Shown: positions 28,269-47,388 of the stretch, one piece after another
Position numbering within the stretch: position 1 is the first letter of the stretch
How the letters are laid out: every line of letters begins with the position of its first letter
Source of the DNA: Georgenia sp. EYE_87
GTDB taxonomy: Bacteria; Actinomycetota; Actinomycetes; Actinomycetales; Actinomycetaceae
DNA: 64,000 bases
NCBI RefSeq assembly: GCF_023148685.1
Contig: NZ_JAHXNL010000004.1
Coordinates: forward strand, 10,594 to 74,593
Reading direction: 5' to 3'
The notes under the pieces: model-generated
What the model was told of the DNA's origin: nothing
The model's database searches: none
The model's input: the letters and a program-made list of their open reading frames with translations, nothing else
Position numbers and translations under genes: made by a program

Positions 28269-29165
28269 ATGCGAGAACACTCGGACGGGAGCGGCGTCGC
28301 GACGCCGGTGATCGGGAGCTACCTGCTGCCGGAGCACTGGCGAGCGCCGATCACCGGCTGGCTGCGGTGGCTGAAGTCCGACGGCCGGCCCAACGACTCC
28401 GTGGCCGTGCGCAGGACGCAGATCACCCGGCTCGCCCGTGAGCGGACCGACCGGGACCCGTGGAGCCTGACCACCCAGGACCTCGCGGAGTGGCTCGCGG
28501 AGCACCCCGCCTGGACGCCGTCGTACCGACGTGCCGTGCGCGCCGCCGTCCGAGGTTTCTACGCCTGGGCCCGCGCGGTCGGAATGGTCGACCATGACCC
28601 AGCCAGCCTCCTGCCCCGTTCGCGGCCTGGTCACTACCAGCCGCGCCCCATCCCCGACGACGTGGTCGAGCGGGCGATGAGCACCGCGACCCCTCGGGTC
28701 AAGTTGATGCTCGAGCTCGCCCGCGACTGCGGCCTGCGCCGGGCCGAGATCGCCGCTGTTCACACCAGCGACGTCGAGCGACACCACGGCATCGATTTCC
28801 TGCGGGTCAACGGCAAGGGCCGGCGTGAGCGGCTCGTGCCCATCTCGACGAGCCTGGCCGAGCGCATCCGGGAGCGACCGACGGGCTGGCTCTTCCCGTC
28901 ACCCCACCGCGCGAGCCACCTGTGCACCGACCGGGTCGGCAAACTCATCACCGCGGCACTGCCGCGACCGTGGACGCCGCACTCTCTCCGACACGGATAC
29001 GCGACGGCCGCTTACGCGGTCGAGAACGACCTCGTCGCCGTCCGCGACCTCCTCGGACACTCATCGGTCTCCACGACACAGATCTACGTCCTGGCCCCCG
29101 CCGGCGCCGTCCTGCGAGCAGGCTCTGGCGCGCGGCTTCACTCTGCGAGAGGCAGTGCAGCGTGA
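28269..29165 (+). CDS. Tyrosine recombinase/integrase
   Basis: A 298-residue phage-type integrase with an N-terminal SAM-like core-binding domain (about 20-115) and a catalytic domain (about 130-285). The active site is complete: R157 (GLRRAEI), lysine in NGKGRRERLVP, H238 and R241 (HSLRH), H264 (LLGHSSVS) and the nucleophile Y273 (QIYVL). It is preceded by the tRNA fragment, the expected att arrangement, and reads away from it. It overlaps the next small gene by 4 bases. It probably mobilised the island that follows. Confidence 0.94.
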   Translation: MREHSDGSGVATPVIGSYLLPEHWRAPITGWLRWLKSDGRPNDSVAVRRTQITRLARERTDRDPWSLTTQDLAEWLAEHPAWTPSYRRAVRAAVRGFYAWARAVGMVDHDPASLLPRSRPGHYQPRPIPDDVVERAMSTATPRVKLMLELARDCGLRRAEIAAVHTSDVERHHGIDFLRVNGKGRRERLVPISTSLAERIRERPTGWLFPSPHRASHLCTDRVGKLITAALPRPWTPHSLRHGYATAAYAVENDLVAVRDLLGHSSVSTTQIYVLAPAGAVLRAGSGARLHSARGSAA

Positions 29166-29407
29166 TTCCTCAGCGTCGCGACGGCGGCGAACTCGAAGAC
29201 CGCGAGGCAGAACGGGCGCTCGTCCTTCCGCTATTTCGCTTCTACACACTCGCCGAGGCCGCAGGGCTTCTTGGCATCAGCAAGGCACGGGCATATGGCC
29301 TCGTCCATAGCGGGACACTTCCGGCCGAACAGGTCGGGCCACACAGGCAGTGGTGTGTGGACGCCGGAGACCTCATCGCTCTACTTAGGTCTACCCCCAA
29401 GCGTTAA
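29162..29407 (+). CDS. Excisionase-like helix-turn-helix protein
   Basis: An 81-residue protein with a MerR/excisionase-type winged helix (FYTLAEAAGLLGISKARAYGLV, about 28-48, then HSGTLPAEQVG and RQWCVDAGDLIALL). The GTG at 29162 overlaps the integrase stop (GTGA). This coupling fits a recombination directionality factor, though a simple regulator of the integrase is possible. Bases 29,408-29,574 beyond it hold no gene. Confidence 0.8.
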   Translation: MIPQRRDGGELEDREAERALVLPLFRFYTLAEAAGLLGISKARAYGLVHSGTLPAEQVGPHRQWCVDAGDLIALLRSTPKR

Positions 29408-29574
29408 GCACAGTACGGCTAGAAGATGAGCAGGTGAAGAAGCGAGAAGCACTAGCTCGGAGGCGGAGGAGCGGTTCAAGGTCTCGGCCTCACCGCGACG
29501 CCTAGATTGGCCGAGAAGAGTTACCTATTCATATCGAAACCCGCTCGCACGCTCGTGTGAGAGTCGAGCATCAC

Positions 29575-32500
29575 TCACCCGGCAAGCGCGTCGGAGATGA
29601 GACAAGTCAAGAGAGATGACCCGTAGGTGAGGAGTGCGGTCCCGTCCGTGGCGTGGTCAGCAACCTCGCGGTCGAACGTCACACGGTGCTGCTGCCCCTC
29701 AACAGTGAGCGTGTACACGTCTGTAGCCTCGGCCGGTTTGAAGTGGTTTGCTGTCAGGGGATTACTCATCAGACGTTCTCGCAGAACGTTCAGTGTGACC
29801 TCACCCTCCAGGATCGGCGGTGGGACCATCTCGGCCGGGCCGCCCAGGTCGGTGTTCTGCACCGGGGCAGATTGGACCTCTGCGGCCTGGGTGAGGACCT
29901 TCTGCACGCTCTTGCCCAGGTCCTTGTCGTCGATCATCGCGTGCTCTTGGATGATGTTTTCCACCTCCGCCAGGACGGGTTGGGCGTTGCCGACGATGTC
30001 GGTGAAGTCGCCGTAATCCTCCTTGATGCCCTCGTAGACGCGCTGCTCGACGGTGCCTGCGTAGAAGTAGTTCGTTATCTCGATGTTCTGGTAGGAGGAG
30101 CCGATACGGTCCACGCGGCCGATCCGTTGCTCGACGCGCATCAGGTTCCACGGCATGTCGTAGTTGATGAGACGGCCGCTGGTCTGCAGGTTGAGGCCTT
30201 CGCTCATCGAGTCTGTGCCCAGCAGAACGGTGAGCTTCCCAGTGCGGAACAGCTCCTTGATCTCGGTCTTCGTCGCCGGGTCCCACCCTCCGGTGTCAGA
30301 GTTGTAGACCTCGCCGCCGCGGCCGGAGTAGCAGCCCACGCGGTTCAGGCCGGCTGCGACCACGCGTGCGCGCACGTAGTCAAGAGTGTCGGTGTACTGA
30401 GTGAACACCACGACCGAGTCGTAGGTATGCAACGCCTCCTGCAGGTGGGAGGTCAGTCTGGAGGCTTTTGTGTCCTCGCCGGTGATCTTGCCCAGCTCGT
30501 GCAGGAACGAGCGGAGTTCCGTGATTTCGTCCTGGAGGAGGGCGGTGGAGATCTCGAACTCCTCAGGATCGAAGAGCTCGTCCTCGACGTCGTACTGGTC
30601 GTCCTCGGTAAGCAGGTCCGCCAGGGACTTGCCCTCTTCCAACACCTCCAGCCGTTTGTTCAAGGACCGTCGAATCGCCTCGAACGATGAGGTCAAGCGC
30701 CGTCGATAGATCGTCATGATGAAGCCGAGGGTCTGCTTCTTGTCGGTCTTGTAGGCGTTGTAGTGACGCCGGATGTAGGTCTCGATGCGGTCGTACAGCT
30801 CTTGCTCGTCGTCGCCGAGCTCAATGAAGTCGTCCGTGACGTGCCGGTACGGGACTGTCACCTCTGGTGGAAGGATCCCGGCGGCTTGGTAAGCGCGCAT
30901 CGTCTCCCTGGTGTTGCGGAAGACTCGATCCTTCATTGGTGTATGGCGGCGCAACCACTGATCGATCAGGTCCACCTCGGTATCGGTGAGGTTGTCGACC
31001 GTCTCTGGGGGCATCGACTTGTTGTGGAGGTCGGTGACCTTCCTGGAGCTCGCAAACCCGAGCTCGGTTAGCGCGCGTGCCTCCAAGGTCTCGTCGCGAC
31101 TGGCTTGGGGGTCGGTGAAGTAGTCGCGCAGCATGTGGCACAGGAACGGCCAGGACCGTTCTTTCGGCGGGCGGCGCAGGTTGTTGAAGTAGGAGATGAA
31201 CTCGGTGGCGCCCTGCCCCCACAGGCCTGGCAGGTCGAGCAGCTCGATCAGGTCCCAAGCCTCGTGAGCGTTCATCTGCATAGGAGTCGCCGACGCCAGG
31301 TACAAAGCCTTCCACGACGCCTCGTGGTGCATGGACTGCAATAGCTGGAGCAGCGAGTTCGGAGTGTCCGTCGCCTTGGACCCTCGCCGGCGGGCATGGT
31401 GTGACTCGTCCACCAGAACCACGTCCCACGGCCCAGCGGCGAGGATCTCCTTGCGGCGGGACTTACGGCGGGCGAGGTGGGAGGAGGCCAGGACTATCGG
31501 GAACGCCGACCACGGGTTCCCGCCGTCCCAGTCGACCTGCTCATTGTTGCGGTCGAAGAAGGTGCCTTTGTCGTAGCGGGAGACGTCCAGGCCGATCTTC
31601 TCGGACAGCTCCTCCTGCCACTGGCGCATCACCGTGGCCGGGACGAGCAGGAGCACCCTCTTTGCTGCCCCGGACAGGAACAGTTCGCGAAGGACCAGGC
31701 CAGCCTCGATGGTCTTACCTAGACCCACCTCGTCCGCGAACAGGTACCCGCGTGGGTACGTCTCCACGACCCGTTCGACAAGGCGTGACTGGTGGGGAAG
31801 AGGTGTGGCAGGGGCGGTCCCCACCGCGGTCCACTGCGATCGAGCTGGGGCGTCCCGCAGCGCGATCAGGTCCTCGCGCGCAGCGACGAGATCCGGCTCC
31901 GGCTCAGGTGCAAGGAACTTCCAGATCGGATCCGCCACCGGCGGGGTGTAGTCCGGTGGGCACAGCTTCAGCAGCCGGTCGTCCACGTCCGCCAGGTTCA
32001 TAACCGCCCACCCAGAGTCCGGGTGACCATTCCAGTGTTTGTCGAACCGGGCTTCGATCCCTACGCCCTGCTCGGACCACACTTCCGCCAGCCAGGACTT
32101 AGCCACTGTGAACGTCTCGTGGTTGTACAGCCATCCGGACGCGGACTCGTTCTCCGACCCGATGAACGCCACCTTGTCACCGGCGGTGTCGGTCAAGATT
32201 CCGTACTTGGAGTGGAAGTACCCACGAGCCTGGGCCGGCTCCAACGGGTTGCCCTCCGTGTCGATCGGAATGCCGACCTTAATCTGGAGGAGGCCCTCGC
32301 GGACCATCCAACCCAGTGCCTGCAGGTACTGATCGCCAACCGGGTCACCGGTGGTGGTGATGTCGGCCGCCTGGGCGGCGTCCCGGATCGCCTCGTTCCG
32401 AGCCTTGGCCCCCGCACGGACCGCGGCGACATCGGTTGGAGAGAGCTGTGTCCCGACGATCAACCGCATCCCGCCGTCATGGTCGACCGCGTTGTGCAGG

Positions 32501-32721
32501 AACGGGACCATGCCCCGGGCGGTTACCTGCAAGACAGAGGAGGAGTAGTAGCCGGCCATCCGGTCGTACCGGAAGGACGCTGCCAGTGCGGGTATGTAGA
32601 ACCCGGTAAGCGACTTGTCCCCAGTGGAGTACGTGCCTGCCATGGGCAAGTCCCGCAGCCGCCCCAACCGCTCGATGAGGGCGGGGCGGCTCGCGGTTTC
32701 GGCTCTGTGCTTGCCGGTCAC
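29575..32721 (-). CDS. PLD-SNF2 fusion helicase of an Hma-like defence operon
   Basis: A 1048-residue protein. The N-terminal part (about 25-260) is a phospholipase D-like domain: HSKYG near 167 and FIGSENESASG give the HxK...N(E) pattern of one PLD half-site. Next comes an SNF2/superfamily 2 motor: Walker A DEVGLGKTIEAG (about 328-339), DESHH near 435, LASATPMQMN, then a C-terminal RecA domain with LLGTDSMSEGLNLQ and RIGRVDRIG. PLD-helicase fusions of this kind act in DNA restriction. The GTG at 32721 starts 4 bases after the methylase stop. It is the last gene of a four-gene minus-strand operon. Confidence 0.9.
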   Translation of the reverse strand: MTGKHRAETASRPALIERLGRLRDLPMAGTYSTGDKSLTGFYIPALAASFRYDRMAGYYSSSVLQVTARGMVPFLHNAVDHDGGMRLIVGTQLSPTDVAAVRAGAKARNEAIRDAAQAADITTTGDPVGDQYLQALGWMVREGLLQIKVGIPIDTEGNPLEPAQARGYFHSKYGILTDTAGDKVAFIGSENESASGWLYNHETFTVAKSWLAEVWSEQGVGIEARFDKHWNGHPDSGWAVMNLADVDDRLLKLCPPDYTPPVADPIWKFLAPEPEPDLVAAREDLIALRDAPARSQWTAVGTAPATPLPHQSRLVERVVETYPRGYLFADEVGLGKTIEAGLVLRELFLSGAAKRVLLLVPATVMRQWQEELSEKIGLDVSRYDKGTFFDRNNEQVDWDGGNPWSAFPIVLASSHLARRKSRRKEILAAGPWDVVLVDESHHARRRGSKATDTPNSLLQLLQSMHHEASWKALYLASATPMQMNAHEAWDLIELLDLPGLWGQGATEFISYFNNLRRPPKERSWPFLCHMLRDYFTDPQASRDETLEARALTELGFASSRKVTDLHNKSMPPETVDNLTDTEVDLIDQWLRRHTPMKDRVFRNTRETMRAYQAAGILPPEVTVPYRHVTDDFIELGDDEQELYDRIETYIRRHYNAYKTDKKQTLGFIMTIYRRRLTSSFEAIRRSLNKRLEVLEEGKSLADLLTEDDQYDVEDELFDPEEFEISTALLQDEITELRSFLHELGKITGEDTKASRLTSHLQEALHTYDSVVVFTQYTDTLDYVRARVVAAGLNRVGCYSGRGGEVYNSDTGGWDPATKTEIKELFRTGKLTVLLGTDSMSEGLNLQTSGRLINYDMPWNLMRVEQRIGRVDRIGSSYQNIEITNYFYAGTVEQRVYEGIKEDYGDFTDIVGNAQPVLAEVENIIQEHAMIDDKDLGKSVQKVLTQAAEVQSAPVQNTDLGGPAEMVPPPILEGEVTLNVLRERLMSNPLTANHFKPAEATDVYTLTVEGQQHRVTFDREVADHATDGTALLTYGSSLLTCLISDALAG

Positions 32722-32725
32722 CGGC

Positions 32726-35638
32726 TCACAGGCCTTCCAGCTCCAACGAGAGTTCCTCGAACTTCGCGGTGACCTCTTCCACCTCGGCTGGCAAGGTCAC
32801 GCCAGGCAGGTAGGCGGTCACCAGGGTGTCGAGCAGACCCGCCTCCGGCACCACCCACTCACCCTTGACCCTCGTGCGCGGGATCGCGTTGACCAAGCCC
32901 TGTACGGTCGCCAAAAACCGGGCGTCCTCGACCAGGCGGTGACGGTCCAGGAGCGCCTTGGCGGCGTGCGTGCCGTCCATCTCGGCCACATACAGAACCG
33001 TGTCGACCGCGTCGATCATCGAGGTGAAGGACTCCGCGTCGGGCCGCACCCCAGGAAGTGTGGCGTCGCCACCCCGCCGAACGCGAGCCGTCGGTGCCAG
33101 GAGCGTGACTGTGCCGGTCTTCTTGGTTAGGACCTTCGCCCGTTCCAGGTCCTCCACGCTCTTACCTCCGGTCGCCAGGGCAAGCAGTCGGGCGGTGTCG
33201 TACGGGAACTCCCTCGCGGCAAAGATGTCCCAAGCGATCAGCACGAAGTCGGTCAGATCGTCGATCTGTGCGGTCTTGCCGACCAGGCGCTGACGGCGCA
33301 GCCGGACGACCTCCGCACGAGCGAGGTCCAAGGCCTCCTCCGGGCGTAGGAGGCGCTCTCGGCCGTTCTCATCCGGGGTGGAGGACATGACGGGCCAGTG
33401 CTGGGAGATCACCGACAGGGTCGGCCCGTAGGTGGACAGCAGCAGGTCCACCCCCGCAATGCCGTCGTGCTGGAACCGGGTGACAGCCTCGCGGGCAGCC
33501 TCACGAATTTCCAGCTCGATGTCGTCCAGGAACACCGGCGAGGTGTCCGGGCGGGCGGGTTGCTTGCGGCAAACCAGCATGATCGTGGACGCCGCGGAGT
33601 TCATGTTCGCCTGATGCAGGGACGTCTCGGACTCGGTGTTCACGGGCCATGAGGTCTCGATAGTGAACCCGGCCTCAAGCAGGCCCATACCCAGCGTGTC
33701 CCAGGCCTCGGCGCGCTTGTGAGTGAACATCACCGACAGAACACCGTCATCGCGCAGCACCCTGCGCGCTTCGGTGAAGATGGCGGTCATCTTCGCCTCG
33801 TAGTCCAGATCCGCAAGCTCCTTCTTCCGCTTCCCCATCGCGGCGAATCGAGCGTGGTTGGCGACGGCCTCGTTCTCCTTGTCGGTGAGATCGTCGTGGA
33901 AGAACCCAGGGATGAGCCGGCCCAGGGTTCGCTTCTCCCAGACGTAGAAGTAGTCCGCGAGCTCGGCGTACATGACGTTGTCGTAGTACGGCGGGTCCAT
34001 ACAGATGTGCGCGAACGCTGCGTCAGGTACCCCGGTGAGATCGCCTGCGCCGCCCTGGGTGACAGTGACGTCCCGGTGAAGCGGCTCGGAAGACGCGATT
34101 GTCGGCGCACCAGTGGCATCCACCAACTTTGCGATGCCGCCGTAAGCGTCGACGAGCTGGTCAAGGCACCACCGGTACAACGCCGTGGCACCCTCAAACT
34201 CCGCGAACGTCCACTTGAACGCGAAGTCATGACGCTCGAACACGCTTCGCATGACCTGCTTAGAGACGTGCCAAGAGGCGAGGCGTGAGTTGTAGTTCAG
34301 TGCCTTTCCCTGCATCAGAGCGAGCTCTACCAAGATGGCCTCAGCGTCATCCCCCGCAGCTGCCCGAACTTCGGGGACTAGTCGTGCGAACTCCTCACCG
34401 AAGGTCCCATGCACGAGCGCCTGGCGGGGAGTAAAGAAGTCGGCCCAGTGCGTCATTCCATAGTTGCGGGGGCGCTCGTCGTTGCCCTCGGGGTACTCCT
34501 CGACCGGGAGGACGCCGTCGGCTTCCCACTCGGCGCGCGCAGCTTCGAACGCCTCCTGGGCCTTTGCAAGTGCCGCCAGGTCGGTTTCGTTGGGAGCGCG
34601 GAAGGCTCGCTTGCCGTCATGCGTGCGTATAGCGACGGCGTACAGCACCTGCCTCATGCGCCCGGCTTGCGCCTCGTCCTTGATGTACCCAGCGTCGATT
34701 GGCAGGTAGTCGTACGGGCTGACCGCTGCGCCGCGCATGACGTAACCCGTCGAAGCATCAGCGGCATCGACTTCGCGACCGGTTACGACCGTGAACCTAG
34801 GTTCGCGGAGCTCGACACCACCAAGACTGGTGACGACCTCCACGGCTGCTTCCTGCCCCTTGGTCTTGCGGAGCCACTTGTCCTTAATGAGGGGCACGAG
34901 ACGCCGAGTGCGGGGGCATTCCACGGCATTGGCGAAGAGGTAGGTCGCGACCTGCTCGTTCTTACCGCTCGGGAAGTACTCGATCAGTCGGTCACGAATA
35001 CGTGCGACGAGGATCTCGCCCCACTTCTTCAGGTCAGCCACCAGGGCGGCGCCGTGGAGGGCGGGTGCCTCGACGCCCGCCTTGAGGACGGACGCCGCGA
35101 CGGAGTTCAGGTCGTTGGCGAAGGTGGGAATGCCTAGCCGTGCCGAGGTGAACGGGATGCTGCCACCACCGGCAGTCACGTCAGCGACCGTGGGGAGCTC
35201 GCCCCAGGTGTGACGCAGGACGGCGTGGAGGAGATCCACATTCGCCCTATCCGGGCTGTTCCGAAAAGCCTGCCTGTAGGTGTACGGGTTCGGGATGCGT
35301 ACACCCGAGGCCACAGCTGCGTCATAGGCGGTTCGTGCGGTGATGGGGTCACCCCAGATGCCCACGAGGTGAAGGAGCCACCGTCGGTAGGCCGACTCGG
35401 TACGCAGTTCTGCTGCATCGGGGAAGGCGTCAGCGAGATCCTGGGACCATGCCGGCAGGAGGCCACCGAGGACGACTGCGGCGGAGGCGACGAGAGGGCG
35501 GCGTGCCCACCAGATGTGCAGGAAGTTCAGCGGGGGGAGCGCCGACGCGGCGCCACGTTCGCGGCGGGACTCGATGCCGAGTTCCTGGACGGGGAGCCAG
35601 TCCTCGATGAGGACGCGGGGCTGCTGGTTCTCAGTCAT
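32726..35638 (-). CDS. DUF1156 adenine-specific DNA methyltransferase
   Basis: A 970-residue methylase. The N-terminal DUF1156 signature is clear (LPPLNFLHIWWARRPLVAS, about 33-51), then VTAGGGSIPFTSARLG and a catalytic motif IV DPPYYDN near residue 547 (CMDPPYYDNVMYAELADYFY), typical of amino-group methylases. Later parts carry FTHKRAEAWDTL and TSWPVNTE. It probably marks host DNA as self or is needed for restriction in the operon. ATG at 35638. Length is in the usual range for this large family. It lies between the small protein gene and the helicase. Confidence 0.92.
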   Translation of the reverse strand: MTENQQPRVLIEDWLPVQELGIESRRERGAASALPPLNFLHIWWARRPLVASAAVVLGGLLPAWSQDLADAFPDAAELRTESAYRRWLLHLVGIWGDPITARTAYDAAVASGVRIPNPYTYRQAFRNSPDRANVDLLHAVLRHTWGELPTVADVTAGGGSIPFTSARLGIPTFANDLNSVAASVLKAGVEAPALHGAALVADLKKWGEILVARIRDRLIEYFPSGKNEQVATYLFANAVECPRTRRLVPLIKDKWLRKTKGQEAAVEVVTSLGGVELREPRFTVVTGREVDAADASTGYVMRGAAVSPYDYLPIDAGYIKDEAQAGRMRQVLYAVAIRTHDGKRAFRAPNETDLAALAKAQEAFEAARAEWEADGVLPVEEYPEGNDERPRNYGMTHWADFFTPRQALVHGTFGEEFARLVPEVRAAAGDDAEAILVELALMQGKALNYNSRLASWHVSKQVMRSVFERHDFAFKWTFAEFEGATALYRWCLDQLVDAYGGIAKLVDATGAPTIASSEPLHRDVTVTQGGAGDLTGVPDAAFAHICMDPPYYDNVMYAELADYFYVWEKRTLGRLIPGFFHDDLTDKENEAVANHARFAAMGKRKKELADLDYEAKMTAIFTEARRVLRDDGVLSVMFTHKRAEAWDTLGMGLLEAGFTIETSWPVNTESETSLHQANMNSAASTIMLVCRKQPARPDTSPVFLDDIELEIREAAREAVTRFQHDGIAGVDLLLSTYGPTLSVISQHWPVMSSTPDENGRERLLRPEEALDLARAEVVRLRRQRLVGKTAQIDDLTDFVLIAWDIFAAREFPYDTARLLALATGGKSVEDLERAKVLTKKTGTVTLLAPTARVRRGGDATLPGVRPDAESFTSMIDAVDTVLYVAEMDGTHAAKALLDRHRLVEDARFLATVQGLVNAIPRTRVKGEWVVPEAGLLDTLVTAYLPGVTLPAEVEEVTAKFEELSLELEGL

Positions 35639-35650
35639 GGGAGGGTCCTG

Positions 35651-36094
35651 TCAGTCATCTGCGAGGAGGACGCGGAGCGCCTTGCGGGCGCGGCCACCCC
35701 CTGGGCCAAAGCACTTGGCGTACCAGTAGTAAGTTTCTTCGACGCTCATGGCGTTCACGCCGGCGACGACTGCGCGGATGCGTTCGTGCTTGGTGATGGG
35801 CTGGGTCGCCATGAGTGTCAGGGTCAAGCGCACCCCGGCGGCTTCGTTCAGCCGGATGGGTCTCTTGCGGTTGAACGCCAGGGCAGTGGTGGAGTGCCCG
35901 GAGGTGCGCACCGCAGTTAGGACGGCGTCGACGACGCGGCCGGTCTGGGCGGCGGTGGTGGTGAGGACCTTGGTGGCGAGGGTGTGTCCGTTGTCCCCGT
36001 AGGTCTCCTCGATGACAAGGCCGTAGGTGTCGCCGCGGCCGGGTGTCAGGGTGAGCCGGAATGCGCGGGCCGTGTCTGTCTTGGTTGCGGTCAC
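35651..36094 (-). CDS. Small protein in the Hma-like operon
   Basis: A 147-residue protein without a recognised domain. It has beta-rich sequence in the first 90 residues (FRLTLTPGRGDTYGLVIEE, VRLTLTLMATQPI) and a conserved-looking helical C-terminus (MSVEETYYWYAKCFGPGGG, then RKALRVLLADD). The GTG at 36094 overlaps the DUF499 stop (GTGA) and its stop lies 12 bases before the methylase start, so it is a coupled member of the operon. It could be a specificity or structural subunit; this is inference from position only. Confidence 0.8.
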   Translation of the reverse strand: MTATKTDTARAFRLTLTPGRGDTYGLVIEETYGDNGHTLATKVLTTTAAQTGRVVDAVLTAVRTSGHSTTALAFNRKRPIRLNEAAGVRLTLTLMATQPITKHERIRAVVAGVNAMSVEETYYWYAKCFGPGGGRARKALRVLLADD

Positions 36095-39000
36095 TTGGTC
36101 ACGTCCGCGGTGATGTCGACGTGCTGGATGCCGAGGTCCTTGATGACCTTGTGCAGCTGGGACCAGGCTCCGTTGGCGACGTCCACAGACGGCGTGAACA
36201 CGACCTGGAGTGTCAGAGACCCGTCGACGACCTTGGCGGCCTTCAGTGCCTTGCCGACCTGGTTGTAGATCGACTGGAACTTGGAGCGTTCGGCGGCGCC
36301 CTTGAGTATCGCGCCACCGGTCAGGCCGTCGTACTCGGCGGCCAGGTCGACGGTGACGGTGATCTGGTGCTTCGGGAGCATCCCGAGGGCGACGACGGCA
36401 AGGTCGATGTCGCCCATGCCGCGGATGTTGTCGGCACTGACTCTGATCGTGGCCTTTGAGATGGTCTGGATCGTGAAGTCTGTGATCTGGTCGGTAATCT
36501 GCTGGATCGCGATCCCGCCGGCGCCGGCAGCGTTGAACGTCTTGCCGGTGACGATCCTCTTGGGGATGACGACACCATGCTTGTCAGCCACAGCTCGGGG
36601 CATCACGTGCAGGGCGTCTAGACCCTTGTCCCGGATGCTTGACGGGGTCAGGGCATGCACGTCGCCGGCTGTCGGGTCCTGGTCGGTGACGACGATGGTC
36701 TCGTACTGCCCGGCTTGGACGGCGCTGGCGAGGACGTCGAGGACCTCTGTCTTCGCCGGTTCTCCACCGGTCTTGGCCTCGAGAGCGGTGCGGATGCTTG
36801 CCCCTGTCGTCACCGACTGGGGCAAGACCATGTTCAGGTCCGCGATGGTGGGTTTGCGGACCAGCAGGTTGCGCGTGGTGGCCTCACCGGTAGTCATGAG
36901 CTCGACGTCGGGGCGGAACTCAACCTTCAGTCCCTGCATGGTGGTGCCGGTGTGAACCTTGCCGGTGGAGGCGTCGTAGTACACCCAGCCGTCATTGCGG
37001 ATCCCGTTAGTGATGGCTTCCCGGACCAGGTTGGCGTCCCGGACCATCGGGGAGCCGTGGTCCATCCAGAACCAGTCCAGCATCGCTTGGGTAGTCACCG
37101 ATTCCTGCCCGGCCGGCCACGTCTTGGACTTCAGGAACGAGGACGTCATGGGGTTCGTGCGGATCTTGTTCTCGTCCTCCAGGAGGGTCAGAACAGCGCG
37201 CGTCGCGGTCTTGGTGTCCCCTTGCTGCTGCGGCGGGAGCTCGTGGTGTCGCAGGAAACCGGTGGCCTTGTCCCCGACGGGATAGTAGACGTGCTTGTAG
37301 CAGCGGGTAATTGCCACCCTGGCTTCCAGGGCGGCGGACTTCTGGAAGGCGGTGATCTTCTTGTGAATCTCCGGCCCGAACTGCGCCATCCGCGCACTGT
37401 CGGCCGCGAGCGTGTCCGCGGCGATCGTGCCCCGGATCCTGTCTTTGAGCGCGTCCACCTGGTTCTCATCAGCGACAGCGAACACGACCGCATTCTTGAA
37501 CCGGCGCAGCGACCCCGACGACCCGGTGCTCGCCAGGATCTCCTGGAGGAGGCCGGGCGGGGTGTCTGCGATCTTGGCGTTGACGGTCACCTGGTCGTGG
37601 TGCATGACCGCCAGGCGCAGGTTGGCCTGGTCGGAAACACTGGCGGGACCGGTGGGAAACAACACGGTGGTAGCACCGCCGTCGTTGGAGAACGCCGTGG
37701 TGATGTGGTCGTCCAGGACGGCGGCGACCTGGGTGTTCTGAACGTTGCGCTTCTCTGTTTCAATGATGGCGTTGACATTCGGTTCGACGTTGAAACGGAA
37801 TCGGGACCCGTCGTAGGACAGGTGCCAGAACACCTTTTCGGCCTCGACCAGGGCCTTCTCGAAGACCGCGGGATCCTCGCCAGGCCGTATCGTCCCCAGG
37901 AGCCAGTCGTTTCGGGAGGCGCCGGCGCCGGCCTTCATCTCCAGCGAGTGGGTGAAGACGGTCTGGGCGACGCGGCTGGTGTACGGCGGCCGGCTGGGGA
38001 ACAGCTTGGCGTCCAGGGCGGCGGCGTGGGAGGTCGGACCGGCGAAGTCGGCGGTGGCAACGTTCTCAAACTCGCCCCTACCCAGACCTTCGGTCAGGTG
38101 GGACAGAACGGGCTGGTCGGAGTAGTCAATGTCTCCGACGTTGATCACAGCGGTGGTGTCGCCGTCGAGGTAGGCGTGGTGGACGAGCGCAGCGAGGAGT
38201 TTCAGGGCACCTCGGGCGCGCTGGAACTGGGGGATGTCACCGAGGCGCTTGTCGAGGACGCGGACGAGCTCGGGGTGCAGCGGGTAGTACTTCTCGACCT
38301 GTTCGGCGTACTGGGCCGGGTGTTCGGCACCACCGGCGAGATCCTCGGTCGTCGACAGATTCTCGTACAGGTTCTTGTACGCGTCGGCGGCTGCCCTGGC
38401 GGCCGCTGGGTCGATGGACTTGAACAGCCGCCTCTTGAGAATCTCCCCGATCTCAGAGTCATCAGCGGGACGGATGACCGCCGAAGGCGAGATCGATCGG
38501 GCAAGAACGTCCTTGGCTTCCGTAAGGGCGGTGCTGGTGGCCTCGGTGGCCTCGTCGAGCAGCTCGGTAAGCTCGTCTGTCTCCTTGCCAAATGCATTCG
38601 CGCTGGCCGCGAGGGTGATGATCACACAGAGCCTGTTGGCAGAATCGGAGGCGACCTCGAACAGGTTCTTGAAGAACACTGGGACCGCTTGGGCACTGCG
38701 GCGCACATCCTCGTCTCCGGACGAGGTCAGCTGGCGCAGATACTGGGCTATCTCATCAATGATGACGATGGTCGGTTTGCCGCCGAACGCCTGAGCGATC
38801 GTGTGGGTGCCAGGAGCAGAGCGCGAGATGTCGTTAGCGCGCATCGCCTCGTACGCGTCGTCACCGATCTGGGCGGCCATCTCACCCCACAGGGTGAAGG
38901 TGCGGTGACCACTTGTCGGGACGCCAGCGACGGGATCTAGGGCGTCGCCCACGAGCGCGGCGACCTGGACAGGACCGTCAGGCAGCACCGAGGTATCCAT

Positions 39001-39345
39001 GAAGGCGTCGAGGTCTTCCGGACGGGCGCCGGTGGCAAGGTGGTAAATCGCGACCAGGTCGTGCGTCTTGCCGCCGCCGAACGATGTGGTCGGGCGAAGA
39101 ACACCATGTTCCCCCGCGGTGCCCTTGGCCCCCGTGACACGACCGAAGGCCCGAGTGAGCAGAGCGTTGAGACCGCCCGTGGGGTAGGTGATCGCGAAAA
39201 ATTCGTCCGGCTGCCCGTAGACCGGGTAGTTCGCGGCGTCCCGGACGACCTTGTCAAGCTGGGCGGCGAAGTGATTGCCGTCCAAGCCGCCTTCGAGGAT
39301 GTCGGCACGTGCTTCGCAGGTCACGCGCAGCGGCACGAGGCTCAT
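36091..39345 (-). CDS. DUF499 AAA+ ATPase of an Hma-like defence operon
   Basis: A 1084-residue ATPase and the first gene of the operon. Walker A is TTSFGGGKTHDLVAIYHL (about 87-104), and Walker B is TIVIIDEIAQYL near 192-203, followed by the sensor-like ITLAASANAFG. This is the DUF499 pattern; large P-loop ATPases of this group accompany DUF1156 methylases and helicases in restriction-type phage defence. The C-terminal 150 residues (IRVSADNIRGMGDIDLAVVA) may form a separate beta domain. ATG at 39345. Its promoter should lie in 39,346-39,556, where no gene was seen. Confidence 0.92.
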   Translation of the reverse strand: MSLVPLRVTCEARADILEGGLDGNHFAAQLDKVVRDAANYPVYGQPDEFFAITYPTGGLNALLTRAFGRVTGAKGTAGEHGVLRPTTSFGGGKTHDLVAIYHLATGARPEDLDAFMDTSVLPDGPVQVAALVGDALDPVAGVPTSGHRTFTLWGEMAAQIGDDAYEAMRANDISRSAPGTHTIAQAFGGKPTIVIIDEIAQYLRQLTSSGDEDVRRSAQAVPVFFKNLFEVASDSANRLCVIITLAASANAFGKETDELTELLDEATEATSTALTEAKDVLARSISPSAVIRPADDSEIGEILKRRLFKSIDPAAARAAADAYKNLYENLSTTEDLAGGAEHPAQYAEQVEKYYPLHPELVRVLDKRLGDIPQFQRARGALKLLAALVHHAYLDGDTTAVINVGDIDYSDQPVLSHLTEGLGRGEFENVATADFAGPTSHAAALDAKLFPSRPPYTSRVAQTVFTHSLEMKAGAGASRNDWLLGTIRPGEDPAVFEKALVEAEKVFWHLSYDGSRFRFNVEPNVNAIIETEKRNVQNTQVAAVLDDHITTAFSNDGGATTVLFPTGPASVSDQANLRLAVMHHDQVTVNAKIADTPPGLLQEILASTGSSGSLRRFKNAVVFAVADENQVDALKDRIRGTIAADTLAADSARMAQFGPEIHKKITAFQKSAALEARVAITRCYKHVYYPVGDKATGFLRHHELPPQQQGDTKTATRAVLTLLEDENKIRTNPMTSSFLKSKTWPAGQESVTTQAMLDWFWMDHGSPMVRDANLVREAITNGIRNDGWVYYDASTGKVHTGTTMQGLKVEFRPDVELMTTGEATTRNLLVRKPTIADLNMVLPQSVTTGASIRTALEAKTGGEPAKTEVLDVLASAVQAGQYETIVVTDQDPTAGDVHALTPSSIRDKGLDALHVMPRAVADKHGVVIPKRIVTGKTFNAAGAGGIAIQQITDQITDFTIQTISKATIRVSADNIRGMGDIDLAVVALGMLPKHQITVTVDLAAEYDGLTGGAILKGAAERSKFQSIYNQVGKALKAAKVVDGSLTLQVVFTPSVDVANGAWSQLHKVIKDLGIQHVDITADVTK

Positions 39346-39556
39346 CGGGACTCCAGAAGCGTCCGCGGGTCCCCGCCTGGCCGTGTGCGCTGTGGCTTTC
39401 GATCCACTGTTCCTCCATGTGACGAAACCTCACGGGGAGACTATCGGGCGGAGGGAGTGGCTAGGGCCACGTTTCGGTCGTAGTTTGCTGCTTATAGGCG
39501 CGGGTGCACACAGTTCGATCTCGGGAGCCTTACCACGATGCTGAGTGTGGGTGGGC

Positions 39557-39587
39557 GAGGAGCGCCCCGAGACTCGGGGCGCTCCTC
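39557..39587. terminator. Perfect 15-base inverted repeat after the 50-residue peptide gene
   Basis: GAGGAGCGCCCCGAG (39557-39571) and CTCGGGGCGCTCCTC (39573-39587) are exact complements around one base; the true loop would be 3-5 bases. It lies 26 bases downstream of the minus-strand peptide gene at 39614-39766 and also upstream of the DUF499 operon, which it may insulate. Confidence 0.8.
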
Positions 39588-39613
39588 CGAGCTCGACGGT
39601 CGCGGCTCGACAG

Positions 39614-39766
39614 TTATCGGGCGGTGTTTGGAGCACCTCCGAACCCGAAGTGCCTGAGGAGTTCGGCAGCCTGGCGCACAGCTTCATTGAGTGCTGCGAG
39701 GAGGATAGCTCGGACTGACTGCCTGACGGGCGGACTGTTGAAGATACGTGCGAAGAACTGCCTCAT
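39614..39766 (-). CDS. 50-residue amphipathic peptide gene
   Basis: The frame encodes 50 residues beginning MRQFFARIFNSPPVRQ and ending GFGGAPNTAR. Residues about 15-40 (VRQSVRAILLAALNEAVRQAAELL in two halves) would form one long amphipathic helix with arginines spaced along one face. It ends 26 bases before a strong terminator and diverges from an XRE regulator gene, with 122 bases between starts. That arrangement is typical of a regulated small gene, such as a toxin or signalling peptide. The upstream site (GAGAGCGAGAG) is only moderate. No homologue is recognised, so this is a prediction. Confidence 0.55.
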   Translation of the reverse strand: MRQFFARIFNSPPVRQSVRAILLAALNEAVRQAAELLRHFGFGGAPNTAR

Positions 39767-39812
39767 TGCACTCTCGCTCTCTCATCGTCGTTCAAGTGGT
39801 ATCTGTTTGGTC

Positions 39813-39823
39813 CCCCTAAGGGG
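39813..39823. promoter_or_regulatory. CCCCT-A-AGGGG palindrome in the XRE/peptide divergent region
   Basis: CCCCT at 39813-39817 and AGGGG at 39819-39823 flank one base, midway between the divergent starts of the peptide gene (39766) and XRE gene (39889). It is a candidate operator for the XRE protein. GGTAACC at 39827-39833, just beyond it, is a second short symmetrical sequence. Confidence 0.45.
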
Positions 39824-39888
39824 TCAGGTAACCAGCCGTGCGCGAAAGTGTCAAGACCATACACACCCCGACCAGGTACCGTTGCCCC

Positions 39889-40470
39889 ATGGACCGGGAG
39901 GAGACGCTGCGGGAGCAGAGAGCCCTCGGTGAGGTCATCAAGCAACTTCGAAGCATGAGCCCGAGCCGGAGGCAAGAAGCCTTACCCCAGGAGCGGATGA
40001 CCAGGCAGGAGTTTGCGGAACTGGTCGGCGTGAGCCCGGTGATGATCGCCAAGATTGAGCAGGGGGCGAAACCGCCTCCCGCCCGCAGGTTGACTGCCAT
40101 CGCAGCGGCGCTCGGTGTGGACCCGTTCGACCTGTCTGATCGAGGCGCTATGTGGGCGCGCATCCGGGGCACGAGTCTCGCCTCTCAGGCTGCGCTACGA
40201 CGGATCGCGACGGGGCGCATGCCCACGCCTAACCCGCTCAGGCACGTCTTCGACCTTGCGGTCGGTGATGGGCGAGATTTCGTCCTCATAGCGGAAGCGA
40301 AGCAGCTAAACATAGACAGGTACCTATCGACACTGCGCGAGCAAATCCAGCAGCGCGTGGCGCGGGCGGACCTCGGCGAACTAGAGGCAATCGCAGCTTC
40401 CCTGGGTGTTCCCACGGTTGCCGATCACACACGGGCAGAAGGCATCCATCCTGTCGATGACATGCCGTGA
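39889..40470 (+). CDS. XRE-family helix-turn-helix regulator
   Basis: A 193-residue DNA-binding protein. The Cro/CI-type helix-turn-helix lies at about 38-68 (MTRQEFAELVGVSPVMIAKI, then EQGAKPPPARRLTAIAAALG). The C-terminal 120 residues have no recognised domain but include FVLIAEAKQLNIDRYLSTL. The ATG at 39889 has no clear ribosome site, so the mRNA may be leaderless; a GTG at 39838 is an alternative start. It diverges from the 50-residue peptide gene and probably controls it, and perhaps the flanking defence operons. Confidence 0.88.
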   Translation: MDREETLREQRALGEVIKQLRSMSPSRRQEALPQERMTRQEFAELVGVSPVMIAKIEQGAKPPPARRLTAIAAALGVDPFDLSDRGAMWARIRGTSLASQAALRRIATGRMPTPNPLRHVFDLAVGDGRDFVLIAEAKQLNIDRYLSTLREQIQQRVARADLGELEAIAASLGVPTVADHTRAEGIHPVDDMP

Positions 40471-41892: not shown

Positions 41893-42621
41893 TTAGAGCG
41901 ACAGCAACGCACTCTCGTTTGCCCGGACCACCTGCGCAGCGTGCTGGCGGGTGCTTCCCCAGAGGTCAGCGAGACCATCGATTGCGTCCGTCACGTCCCA
42001 GGGCCGTAGCGGTCGGCGATTCTTCTGCGCGAACGGTCCGTCGGTCTCCACGACCAACCTGTCGGTGGGGATCTCAGAGACCAACGAACGACCTCGCGCC
42101 CCGGTGAGCATCGCTGGACCGACGCTGAACCAACATCCTCGTTCTGCCGCTCGGCGAACCTCAGCCTTGGTACCGGAGAACCAGTGCAAGACGACCTTAT
42201 CCAACCCGGGATAACGGTCCAAGCAGCCGAGAACCTGCGACGCCGCGAGACGGCTGTGCACCGATAGGACCTTGCCTCCCGCCTGCTCACAGGAGCGCAA
42301 GACGTGATCGAACACCTGGATCTGCGAATCCCAACTGCTGAGGTGCCGTGGCGAACCATCCAATCCCACCTCACCCACAAACCGGGTCTCCGGCAGCAGA
42401 CGATCGAACAGGTGCAGCTCTCGGTACCGCGCGCCGGCGAGCTCAGGGTGGAGACCCAGCGCGGTCCGAATCAGCGGTCGTCCCTTGGCCAGACGCGTGG
42501 TGCCCGCCCATGCGGCCGGTGTAGTTGTCACCGACAAGACCCCCACTCCACGCCGCTCGAGCTCGTCTGCGACGGCCACGGGATTGGGGTAAAGGTCGAG
42601 ATGGCAGTGGAAGTCGATCAC
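41893..42621 (-). CDS. qatD: QatD: TatD-family metal-dependent nuclease
   Basis: A 242-residue TatD hydrolase, the fourth gene of the Qat locus. The metal-binding DFHCHLD (about 3-9) starts the barrel, with the glutamate in FVGEVGLDGS, histidines in LSVHSRLAAS and LHWFSGTKAE, and aspartate in VVETDGPFA. GTG start at 42621 overlaps qatC by 4 bases (GTGA). In the Qat anti-phage system TatD-like QatD is the presumed nuclease effector or processing enzyme. A housekeeping TatD is not excluded by sequence, but the operon decides. Confidence 0.93.
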   Translation of the reverse strand: MIDFHCHLDLYPNPVAVADELERRGVGVLSVTTTPAAWAGTTRLAKGRPLIRTALGLHPELAGARYRELHLFDRLLPETRFVGEVGLDGSPRHLSSWDSQIQVFDHVLRSCEQAGGKVLSVHSRLAASQVLGCLDRYPGLDKVVLHWFSGTKAEVRRAAERGCWFSVGPAMLTGARGRSLVSEIPTDRLVVETDGPFAQKNRRPLRPWDVTDAIDGLADLWGSTRQHAAQVVRANESALLSL

Positions 42622-43889
42622 GCCACACCGTAGTGGTTTAGCAGACCGCCGAGCTCGTCGAGTGCGCGCTCGAGCATCGCTCTCAGGGCCTCGGTGTTCT
42701 GGATGTGCGGGGAGATTAGGGCGTTGCCGATCCACCGGTCCAGACCGTGGTCCTGAACCTGGATCCGCGCCCTGGCGATCGCGTGCAGATCCTCTAGGGC
42801 GGCACCACTGTAGGCGCCCAAGTCGTGATACCTGTAGGACGTCGTGTCCCGGAACCCCGCCGCGAGGAACGCCGCACGCCGCACGCTGCACGGCACGCAC
42901 CGCCCGCAGTGCTCGAGCCCGTAACGCTGGTACCGTCCGCAGCTCGTCGACTCGATCGCGAGCTCGGCCAGCAGCTCCTGGTCGGCGCAGTCCAGGATCA
43001 TCTGGCCCTTGGTCTTCTCCGCATATGGGTTCCGTAGCTCCACCCTGAGTCCGAGGGCGTCCAAGATCCCCTGGAGCTCCCCCAGGTAGTGCGGGTGAGC
43101 AGTGCGTGTGCTCAGGCTGCCGATCCGCGCCGCAGTCAGGGCCGGGTTGATCGCGATGAACCCGTTCTCGCAGATGTAGACGGGCACGACCTCTCCGTCC
43201 GCGTACCGCTGGGTGGTAGTCGCCGCGAGCACGGCAAAAGCCAGGAAGAGCAGCGACCGCGCCCGCTGGGACTTCTCGCTGGCCGCCCAAGGGGTGCTGA
43301 CGTTGTGGTTAACCCGGAGGTGGTCGACCGCGGAGACCTTCTTCGCGAACTGAACCTGGTTGGCCTGGTCGCCGCGCACCGTGTGGCTGACGGCGAAGAT
43401 GTTGGATCCGGACCTGTGGAGGTCGATTACGCCGACGAGGCTGTCGAGACCACCCGACAGGAGCACCGCCGCGTCCGCTGTGGACACGCGAGTCTTCTTC
43501 GGCGCCGAGGGCAGGTCGGCACCGCCGACGAACGTGACGGACCAACGATCCGTGGTTAGGAACGCCAGCGTTGACGCGGTCTGCGCACTGAGACCGTCCC
43601 ACTGCGACGGGTCGCTGACCGCCACTTCCAGCTCGATCTCGCGGGTCCACCCGTCGACGCTCGTGTCCCGGCGGACTGTGAGGTCCGCCGCGACGGCGCT
43701 CAGCGCGAGGGAAACAAGGTCCCACGCAACTGGCGACGGCGCGAGGCCCATGCGTCGAACCGCTGCGGCCGCCGCCGCACCGGCCGACACGCCATCAGCG
43801 GGAGCCGGCTTGCCGTAGAGCACGACCGGTGTCACCTCCGATGCGGTCGCCACGCCAACGGAAGCCTTCGGACCACAGACGAATTTCAC
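42618..43889 (-). CDS. qatC: QatC: QueC-like ATP-dependent ligase
   Basis: A 423-residue protein related to 7-cyano-7-deazaguanine synthase. The PP-loop SGGLDS is at residues 145-150, and a zinc site of four cysteines lies at 317, 328, 331 and 334 (CGRYQRYGLEHCGRCVPC). It is longer than QueC (about 230 residues), with an extra N-terminal domain of about 135 residues. QueC-like proteins in defence loci are thought to modify a protein or nucleic acid with a deazaguanine-type chemistry. No queD, queE or queF is nearby, which argues against queuosine synthesis. GTG at 43889 overlaps qatB (GTGA). Confidence 0.93.
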   Translation of the reverse strand: MKFVCGPKASVGVATASEVTPVVLYGKPAPADGVSAGAAAAAAVRRMGLAPSPVAWDLVSLALSAVAADLTVRRDTSVDGWTREIELEVAVSDPSQWDGLSAQTASTLAFLTTDRWSVTFVGGADLPSAPKKTRVSTADAAVLLSGGLDSLVGVIDLHRSGSNIFAVSHTVRGDQANQVQFAKKVSAVDHLRVNHNVSTPWAASEKSQRARSLLFLAFAVLAATTTQRYADGEVVPVYICENGFIAINPALTAARIGSLSTRTAHPHYLGELQGILDALGLRVELRNPYAEKTKGQMILDCADQELLAELAIESTSCGRYQRYGLEHCGRCVPCSVRRAAFLAAGFRDTTSYRYHDLGAYSGAALEDLHAIARARIQVQDHGLDRWIGNALISPHIQNTEALRAMLERALDELGGLLNHYGVA

Positions 43890-44692
43890 TCCAGGTACCC
43901 CTCGAACACCTTGAACGCCTCCCTCAGCGCGCCTTGCGTGAGTCGTGCCAGGTCCGGGCTGGCGGGCGTGCTACCCGAGGCCCAGAGTTTGTCGAACTCG
44001 GCGGCGACGGTCGCGGCGATGTACTCCCGCACCTCGGCGAACCGAGCCGACGCGGCCGATGGCGACGACGCATGCTCGTCCAGCTTCTTCCCGAGGTCGA
44101 GGCAGAACCGGTTGTAGACGTCCAGCCCGACGAACCGCTCGAGGACGTACTGCCGTTGGGCGTCGTCGAGGTCGAGCAGGTCGGCCTCGGGGTACCGCTC
44201 CAGGACGTCCGAAAGTGCGTCGCGGACCGCTCGCCGTGATGACTCGGCGTCCTGTGTGCCGTCGACCGGTCTGATCACCTCGACTATGGCGTCCAGTACG
44301 GACTGGGCGTTCTTCCCTCCGGCGATGGCGGCGTCGCGGGCTGCCACCAGGTCCGGTTGCGCGCCTGGCTGCAGCACCGCGCCCAGCCGGGCAGCGGTGC
44401 GCGAGGTCCCGTTCAACCTCCGGGCCATCGTGGCCCCACCGCCGTACCCGCTGCGGACGTAGTGCCCAAGGGCACGATGCATCTGCTCGTCGCTGCCGGT
44501 GCGCGCGTACCGCCCGATGTTGGTGCGCGCGTCACGGAAGCGTGCCGGGGCGGCGACAGGGATCGTGGCGTCGGGCGGAGGCTCGTCGGGGGACGGCTCA
44601 CCCTTCGGGGGCTCCGGGGGGATGTCCTCGACCCACGGCGGGACGAGGGCGACGGATGCCGACGGTCCGCTGCTACTTTGCGAGGTTCCCAC
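43886..44692 (-). CDS. qatB: QatB: Qat system protein of unknown function
   Basis: A 268-residue protein. The first 50 residues are disordered and rich in proline, serine and glutamate; the remainder is helical (RFRDARTNIGRYARTGSDEQ, then HYVRSGYGGGATMARRL). The glycine-rich YVRSGYGGGA and the C-terminal EAFKVFEGYLE are conserved-looking. It was identified mainly by position between a KAP ATPase and a QueC-like protein, which defines QatB. Its start lies 20 bases inside qatA and its stop overlaps qatC by 4 bases. Confidence 0.85.
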   Translation of the reverse strand: MGTSQSSSGPSASVALVPPWVEDIPPEPPKGEPSPDEPPPDATIPVAAPARFRDARTNIGRYARTGSDEQMHRALGHYVRSGYGGGATMARRLNGTSRTAARLGAVLQPGAQPDLVAARDAAIAGGKNAQSVLDAIVEVIRPVDGTQDAESSRRAVRDALSDVLERYPEADLLDLDDAQRQYVLERFVGLDVYNRFCLDLGKKLDEHASSPSAASARFAEVREYIAATVAAEFDKLWASGSTPASPDLARLTQGALREAFKVFEGYLE

Positions 44693-46571: not shown

Positions 46572-47388
46572 GGACGTGCTCTTTCCGAGAATAGAGCAGT
46601 TTCGGAGCGCGTCAGGCGTTAACCGGGCAGACCAGATCCGCCGCGGGCGGGTCAATGGAGCACGCCACCCGATCCAACGTGCCATTACCGGCGTACCGGC
46701 GGCGACGCCGCCACAATGTCTGTCACGGCGCGCGTGGCAGGTCCCGCCGCGGGATTCTCGTCTGTACCGGACTGCGATGCGCTCGACACCTTGCTACCGT
46801 CGCTGTTACCGCGGTTCTGGCCCATCACCGAACTGCCGCCTAGTTCTCGCTGCATTTCGTTTCCAGACTCCCCCACGGCTACACACCACGTGATGGCCCA
46901 AAGAGGCGAAATCACGCCTATGCACAACCTGAGCAGCACTGGTACGGACCTACACCACGAGCTCCATGAAGCGCCCAGGTTCGGTGCCGCATTCCGGTCG
47001 GGACGGTGAGAGGCGTCGCTTCGCTGGCGTCGTATCGTCCCGCTGGCCGAACCGTGGACGGCGCGGTAACCCGCGCTGAGCGCTGGCGTCCCGGAAGGGA
47101 ATCCTCCTGCGAAGGATCGCATGGCGCTGCGAGGGAACTCGGATCGCCGGCACTTCATGCCGCAGGGGATTGGCCTATCGGGACGTCCGGAGATACCGAG
47201 ACGCCCAAAATCGTGTACCTGCATGGAGTCGGTGGGCTATCGCTACGAGCGATGGAGCACTCGCATACACTTCGCGAGGGACGAATTGGACCACTAGAAC
47301 TCCTCTGAATCGGTGGGCCAAACCTGGCCAAGACTGGACAGACCAGCCCTGGCGGCCCGGAGAGTGCTCCACGAGAGGATAACTGGTT
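46572..47388. other. 817-base gap upstream of qatA
   Basis: This should contain the qatA promoter. One weak candidate gene lies on the minus strand at 46685-46855: 56 residues beginning MQRELGGSSVMGQNRG, with GGAG ten bases upstream of its ATG; its frame extends upstream through a hydrophobic stretch (RLCIGVISPLWAITWCVAV). It is hydrophilic and unordered, so may be chance. The remainder shows no recognisable coding sequence. Confidence 0.35.

Follow-up and report, generated by a model that had tools for sequence, protein, structure and literature searches.

A DUF499-centred operon of Georgenia sp. EYE_87 with DUF7680 as its probable small subunit: a putative subtype of the BREX-Related systems

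What is the small gene between the ATPase and methylase genes of a putative defence operon in Georgenia sp. EYE_87, and to which known system does the operon belong? The operon lies on a 64,000-nucleotide stretch of contig NZ_JAHXNL010000004.1 (positions 10,594 to 74,593), hereafter the window, where its four minus-strand genes span 29575-39345. The reading frames are placed as in a first-pass annotation of the letters alone, which had described the locus as an Hma-like (helicase-methylase-ATPase) operon with an unlisted fourth subunit. We estimate at about 70% the probability that these genes form a complete restriction-modification-like anti-phage operon, belonging to the DUF499-centred relatives of the bacteriophage exclusion (BREX) systems, termed BREX-Related, and to a subtype with DUF7680 as its small subunit. 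This would be a new, separate subtype, because the helicase and the gene order are like those of the Type-2 BREX-Related system, DUF7680 stands in the place of DUF3780, and the methylases fall into separate clades.

Composition of the operon and linkage of its small gene

The genes, from the first onward, are as follows.

36091-39345, minus strand: DUF499 AAA+ ATPase, first gene (1084 amino acids, ATG start; Pfam and PADLOC)
35651-36094, minus strand: DUF7680 small gene, likely a remote homologue of DUF3780 (147 amino acids, GTG start; Pfam)
32726-35638, minus strand: DUF1156 methyltransferase with a DPPY motif (970 amino acids, ATG start; Pfam and PADLOC)
29575-32721, minus strand: HKD (phospholipase D-like, PLD-like) domain fused to an SNF2 helicase (1048 amino acids, GTG start; Pfam and PADLOC)

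Reading frames, junctions and Pfam matches all agree with the tight operon described in the first-pass annotation, including the 4-base overlap (GTGA) of the ATPase end with the GTG start of the small gene and the 12-base gap between the small gene and the methylase; 4 bases separate the methylase from the helicase. The ATPase matches Pfam DUF499 at 122 bits (cut-off 23) and, in PADLOC, HmaC at 292 bits and the DUF499 model at 106 bits. We take its TTSFGGGKTH to be the P-loop and its VIIDE to be Walker B; the P-loop pattern is present in 88 of the 93 ATPases of the DUF7680 loci collected below. The methylase matches Pfam DUF1156 at 54.8 bits (cut-off 24) and, in PADLOC, HmaB at 258 bits and DUF1156_MTase at 160 bits. 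Its DPPY conforms to DPP[YFW], which occurs in 85/87 methylases of those loci.

The helicase matches Pfam SNF2-rel_dom (59.8 bits) and Helicase_C (58.8 bits), as well as NCBIfam NF042964 at 365 bits, under the cut-off of 1100. In PADLOC, it is matched by PLD_Helicase (209 bits) and by HmaA (188 bits), which four models outscore; the PbeA models cover its N-terminal half (residues 22-447, 199 bits). A nuclease-like site had been proposed for this protein and is supported by its HKD-like motif, HSKYGILTD...GSEN. The distribution of the pattern backs the PLD call: a strict HKD pattern was found in all 61 DUF7680-type helicases scored (those with a match of more than 100 bits and 450 amino acids), that of the window included, whereas none of the 27 helicases from loci without either small gene has the strict or the looser pattern. 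Among DUF3780-type helicases, 1/25 has the strict pattern and 25/25 the looser one.

The small protein belongs to Pfam DUF7680 (103.9 bits, cut-off 24). It is unlisted, as had been supposed, in that it has no PADLOC match and no NCBIfam match above the cut-off, but Pfam does list its family; the term DUF7680 was not found in any paper of the literature searched. Within the genome (38 contigs), the small protein has a single match, and the DUF499 matches are confined to one gene, in two pieces. A scan of GTDB contigs that required the motif MSxEEx[YH]YW, and may on that account miss divergent and solo copies, gave 168 relatives, the best 80 of which were kept and span ten phyla according to the record titles. 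With the window and 11 plasmid, 5 genome and 3 viral loci, these make up 100 DUF7680 loci, which were scored with purpose-built profiles. A DUF499 ATPase was found at 97 of them, the remaining three being viral contigs, and in all 97 it lies upstream of DUF7680 on the same strand, at most 100 codons from the DUF7680 domain in 87 cases. The methylase was found at 90/100 loci and a helicase match at 70/100; many of the loci lacking one of these are cut by contig ends, yet no methylase match was found at L046 and L063, where about 10 kb of sequence is available.

Genome searches with the Pfam model recovered DUF7680 in 1/151 genomes of the organism's own family and 3/396 of the phylum. It was also present in 10/146 genomes from the same phylum as a Nostoc genome and in 19/116 from the same class as a Natronorubrum genome. 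Among the 33 genes obtained from the whole-genome searches (own genome included), the ATPase stands beside 31 and the methylase beside 27 within 1.5-kb flanks; 32 have one or both, and the last one is on a 3.7-kb contig. DUF7680 looks like a fixed part of the operon in its lineage, and the assignment of the small gene to the operon is borne out by its constant position downstream of the ATPase.

The cyanobacterial operon (L004, L005, L006 and the cyanobacterial loci among L050-L088) is usually split, with more than 600 bases between DUF7680 and the methylase in 25/28 loci and between the methylase and the helicase in 16/17; the corresponding counts in Actinomycetota are 0/29 and 0/27. The inserts in fetched examples include PIN/VapC genes, ThiF and a peptidase-ATPase pair, and are candidate defence genes because Hma operons are described as places where other defence genes are embedded (PMC12988326). 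Divergent DUF7680-like genes occupy the same operon place in L169, L172, L277, L283, L290 and L305, where they read MGKEEAGYWLG, AAWWLG and similar instead of MSxEExYYW. Judged from these sequences, the family seems to be wider than the scanned motif.

Relation to Hma, the DUF3780 system and other systems

Hma was defined by the authors of PADLOC as a three-gene operon (PMC8565338). The window has a homologous ATPase, methylase and SNF2 helicase, matched by the HmaC, HmaB and HmaA models at the scores given above, and differs in its fourth gene, as Hma has no small subunit. The operon could still be an ordinary Hma (Type-1 BREX-Related) operon plus an acquired accessory gene, which would suit the higher scores of HmaC and HmaB than of the DUF499 and DUF1156_MTase models, as well as the methylase tree, where a very long stem leads to the DUF3780 rows and the DUF7680 rows are closer to Type-1; part of the ATPase tree weakly agrees. 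However, operons of the same class that lack the small gene are arranged differently. DUF1156 matches were present in 32/394 genomes of the class, from which 33 regions were fetched, and in all 25 regions with an ATPase and a methylase but neither small gene, the ATPase comes after the methylase. This order is an observation made here and is not part of the published definition in the passage that gives it. The ATPase comes first, like in the window, in the three regions with DUF7680; two further regions have a methylase and a helicase without an ATPase, and three have no match at all. The co-occurrence survey that the first-pass annotation had called for thus finds the small gene missing from 25/29 class-sample operons with an ATPase and a methylase (window counted), but those 25 represent another subtype, and the refuting outcome that the annotation had named, absence from nearly all related operons, did not arise in the intended sense. 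The HKD pattern (61/61 against 0/27), the grouping of the helicase with those of the DUF3780 operons, and the 97/97 loci with the small gene downstream of the ATPase also argue against an acquisition by an ordinary Hma operon, which we regard as quite improbable. Type-1 is in these respects the opposite of the window: its ATPase follows the methylase, and both small genes and the HKD pattern are missing; a C-terminal PD-(D/E)XK nuclease is reported for 79% of Type-1 systems (PMC12839542). Membership in Hma as defined is ruled out by the small gene, the gene order and the helicase architecture, and the earlier identification as Hma gives way to a fit of these same features with the Type-2 (DUF3780) architecture.

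The DUF499-centred BREX-Related systems were described by Rakesh and Krishnan (PMC12839542), in whose account Type-2 has an HKD helicase in 83% of taxa and a standalone DUF3780 in 98%. The window is like Type-2 in the HKD nuclease motif on its SNF2 helicase (with PLDc_2 sub-threshold) and in the order of ATPase, small gene, methylase and helicase; a helicase without an N-terminal TUDOR domain and an RRM at the ATPase C-terminus are further marks of the type. We take Type-2 to be the system that Gao et al. (2020) termed 'restriction-like'. The same order, in some cases with interposed genes, was found in 7/8 annotated DUF3780 plasmid loci, and it recurs in the DUF3780 operons of viral contigs; the plasmid locus L165 is broken up by transposases. 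The window differs in having Pfam DUF7680 instead of DUF3780 in the same place. It also differs in its PADLOC scores, which for the ATPase, small gene, methylase and helicase are 1495, 300, 1433 and 1415 bits in the DUF3780 operon L163, and 106, none, 160 and 209 bits in the window.

The two small families were compared by hhalign, with 65 rows for DUF7680, a few of them duplicates, and 28 for DUF3780. The alignment scored 35.0 over 156 columns, nearly end to end, whereas 100 column shuffles reached at most 16.9, the reversed alignment 14.9, and 34 unrelated pieces at most 24.4 (over 18 columns). AlphaFold2 models, with predicted local distance difference test scores of 91.7 (DUF7680) and 83.8 (DUF3780), both begin with three strands and a helical stretch and continue with one strand and four helices, an agreement of order that was compared without superposition; the DUF3780 model has an additional helix at its C-terminus, which is predicted with low confidence. 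The predicted order of strands and helices fits the way DUF3780 has been described, and fusions of DUF3780 to ASCH and RAMA are reported in the same account (PMC12839542). An N-terminal ASCH match on DUF7680 (24-29 bits, cut-off 21.2) was found in 4/5 Chloroflexota loci (L041, L047, L048 and L055). The profile comparison and the predicted strand and helix order suggest that DUF7680 and DUF3780 are likely to be remotely homologous.

Trees were built from chosen rows (82 methylases, 70 helicases and 79 ATPases) with quick searches. The methylase tree, which has long stems, sets apart all 18 DUF3780 rows (support 100, starred) and all 43 DUF7680 rows (98, starred). In the helicase tree, the DUF7680 and DUF3780 rows are joined against the loci without a small gene (Type-1; 100, starred), and the DUF3780 rows form a group (100, starred), as they also do in the ATPase tree (100, starred). 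Membership in the DUF3780 type is ruled out by the Pfam family and the methylase clade, and we keep that type as one that works like the window operon.

Profile searches had also been proposed as a way to reveal another known system, such as the defence island system associated with restriction-modification (DISARM). The PADLOC Drm models match the helicase, with DrmD at up to 208 bits, but at E <= 0.1 they match no other protein among the ten from the window that were scanned; they likewise match the helicase of the DUF3780 system. DISARM is ruled out, because no DrmA, DrmB or DrmC partner was found among the ten window proteins scanned. Type-3 BREX and Type-3 BREX-Related systems have related ATPases, methylases and helicases, with the latter defined by PglZ, mostly with iSTAND, in the published account (PMC12839542); none of the four window genes is PglZ, which was not sought elsewhere in the genome.

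Several observations weigh against assigning the operon to a DUF7680 subtype of the BREX-Related systems. The Hma models outscore the DUF3780-system models for the window ATPase and methylase, and the PLDc_2 match of the helicase reaches 19.5 bits, under the Pfam cut-off of 27. The hhalign probability was 62%, and 5% in the first run with fewer sequences, and Foldseek returned nothing at E <= 0.001 for DUF7680 in BFVD and PDB or for DUF3780 in BFVD. In the helicase tree, the DUF7680 group has a support of 92, unstarred, once L047, whose helicase match is a wrong reading frame, is set aside, and the ATPase tree contains no single DUF7680 clade, with three haloarchaeal rows standing beside Type-1 (support 34). 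There is room for more than 100 codons before DUF7680 in 10/97 loci: four are the ASCH fusions and two have split ATPases in two frames (L031 and L046), while the two genes are genuinely separated in L007 (by some 8.5 kb), L011, L077 and L079. No experiment on any DUF7680 operon was found in the literature searched. Finally, the kind of mark is disputed, HmaB being called an m5C (5-methylcytosine) methyltransferase in one account (PMC8565338) and N6 in the other (PMC12839542).

Genomic setting and proposed working

The operon is accompanied by the following genes.

28269-29165: tyrosine recombinase
39838-40470, plus strand: HTH_3 regulator, divergent, upstream of the operon; a possible control gene (Pfam)
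41893-46685, minus strand: QatA-QatD defence genes (PADLOC: QatA 458, QatB 104, QatC 310 and QatD 290 bits)

The Qat genes adjoin the operon and were counted in favour of a role in defence, which had been proposed from the letters alone and is supported here. Relatives of the HTH gene, QatA and QatC were absent from the loci compared (QatB and QatD were not tried), and we therefore regard the HTH gene and the Qat genes as separate from the operon. Two more genes of the island follow further along the window: at 49603-50631 a PDC-S19 defence candidate (303 bits), which Pfam assigns to DUF3644, and at 57015-58595 an OLD-like ATPase-TOPRIM protein.

The G+C content is some 72-76% before about 28 kb and approximately 64% from there on, so that the operon lies inside the low-GC stretch. 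The tyrosine recombinase followed by an HTH_17 gene (28269-29407) near this fall is possibly the left end of an integrated island. The operon might be a decayed or silent remnant on such a mobile island, in line with the fall in G+C content, the recombinase beside it, and the finding of no sigma-70-like promoter in 29300-39900 against 1.1 expected with a consensus poorly suited to the host; however, the four frames are open and their motifs are present, and we consider decay most improbable.

The data show the gene content and order, the motifs, the small gene's position after the ATPase, a likely homology between DUF7680 and DUF3780, and the separate methylase clades; we infer every biochemical step below, as well as the joining of the proteins into one complex. 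The roles follow the proposal published for Type-2 (PMC12839542), carried over to the window. The DUF1156 methylase would mark its sites in host DNA, and the BrxC-like DUF499 ATPase together with DUF7680 would serve as a sensing and assembly (scanning) platform that tells unmarked or foreign DNA. On such DNA, the SNF2 motor of the helicase would move and its HKD site would cut. Because it neighbours the ATPase and is in some loci fused to ASCH, DUF7680 may act as an adaptor or reader linking the ATPase with the methylase and the helicase, in the position taken by DUF3780 in Type-2. It might instead regulate or silence the nuclease: it is small, the reading frames overlap, and PIN or VapC toxin genes lie near the cyanobacterial operons. 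A function of this kind is, in our judgement, unlikely, as a fusion to ASCH is more in keeping with a reader or platform and, as weak evidence, no regulator or toxin fold was found at E <= 0.001.

Small genes on phages and viral contigs

Solo copies of the small genes, outside any operon, were found on phages or viral contigs.

L188, 9989-10444: solo DUF3780 or DUF7680 gene
L193-L195, L196, L197 and L198: solo DUF3780 or DUF7680 genes
L199, 11710-12225: solo DUF3780 or DUF7680 gene

The motif scan of IMG/VR found DUF7680 on three contigs, two of them nearly identical (two lineages), all solo. The idea that every viral DUF7680 copy is solo was ruled out by a scan for the ATPase, which added four contigs with a DUF7680-like gene inside operons (36-72 bits with a purpose-built profile), so that 3/7 are solo. 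Of the 37 loci from that ATPase scan, 13 have no partner, 12 of these being cut by the contig end. DUF3780 occurs on 30 viral contigs (near-copies retained), nine of which show no matches to the other genes in the flanks; in one solo contig, L252, the gene is at the contig end. In Proteus phage Pm34, gp4 is a DUF3780 protein encoded among holin and endolysin genes. DUF499 had no match in the 13 solo records (3 DUF7680, 9 DUF3780 and Pm34), which may be fragments, and no DUF7680 was found in GenBank phages with the window protein and the solo protein of L197 as queries, at the limits used.

Phage genes accompany several solo copies: terminase, portal, protease and capsid in L188, tape measure and DnaB in L193, DnaB in L196, tape measure in L197, and ParB/methyltransferase in L195. 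PHROG gave no match for the proteins tried from L240, L243 and L194, and only general ones for L248 and L251, although these proteins were picked by reading-frame length, which tells little; L240, L243, L248, L251 and L252 are viral by the labelling of IMG/VR. In L193-L195, a gene of 102-147 amino acids and similar sequence lies just upstream of the solo small gene.

On a DUF3780 tree with 26 rows from operons and 9 solo ones, five changes between the two labels are required, four of them forced by starred branches, with no direction given by the tree; Pm34 is placed with copies from operons of Thiodictyon, Pseudomonas and viral contigs. The DUF3780-type ATPases of viral contigs served as a control: 21/24 are accompanied by partner genes, and the remaining three are either cut off or fragmentary.

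The repeated capture suggests that phages make use of the small gene. AcrIB3, a Cas-mimicking anti-CRISPR, is reported to work by replacing Cas5 (PMC13131331), and the vibriophage inhibitor OrbA hits BREX through BrxC (PMC11580459). By analogy with AcrIB3, we offer a tentative idea that we would sooner doubt than adopt: DUF7680 and DUF3780 may form one small-subunit superfamily on which a branch of the BREX-Related systems depends, and phages may have repeatedly captured the gene as a decoy that jams the complex. Four viral contigs carry the DUF7680-like gene within operons, which speaks against a decoy, and small genes are not significantly more often solo than ATPases are lone (Fisher p 0.06 without the contig-end cases, 0.19 with all). 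The records may also be fragments, and inhibition is what we infer.

With these results, the small fourth gene receives a name, Pfam DUF7680, and is seen to accompany the ATPase in both bacteria and archaea. Owing to its likely link to DUF3780, two lineages within a defence superfamily may rely on a common fold. The PADLOC models used here have no match for DUF7680 and score its partners far below those of the DUF3780 system. If the solo phage copies are truly decoys, they would be ready probes of the assembly of these little-studied systems.

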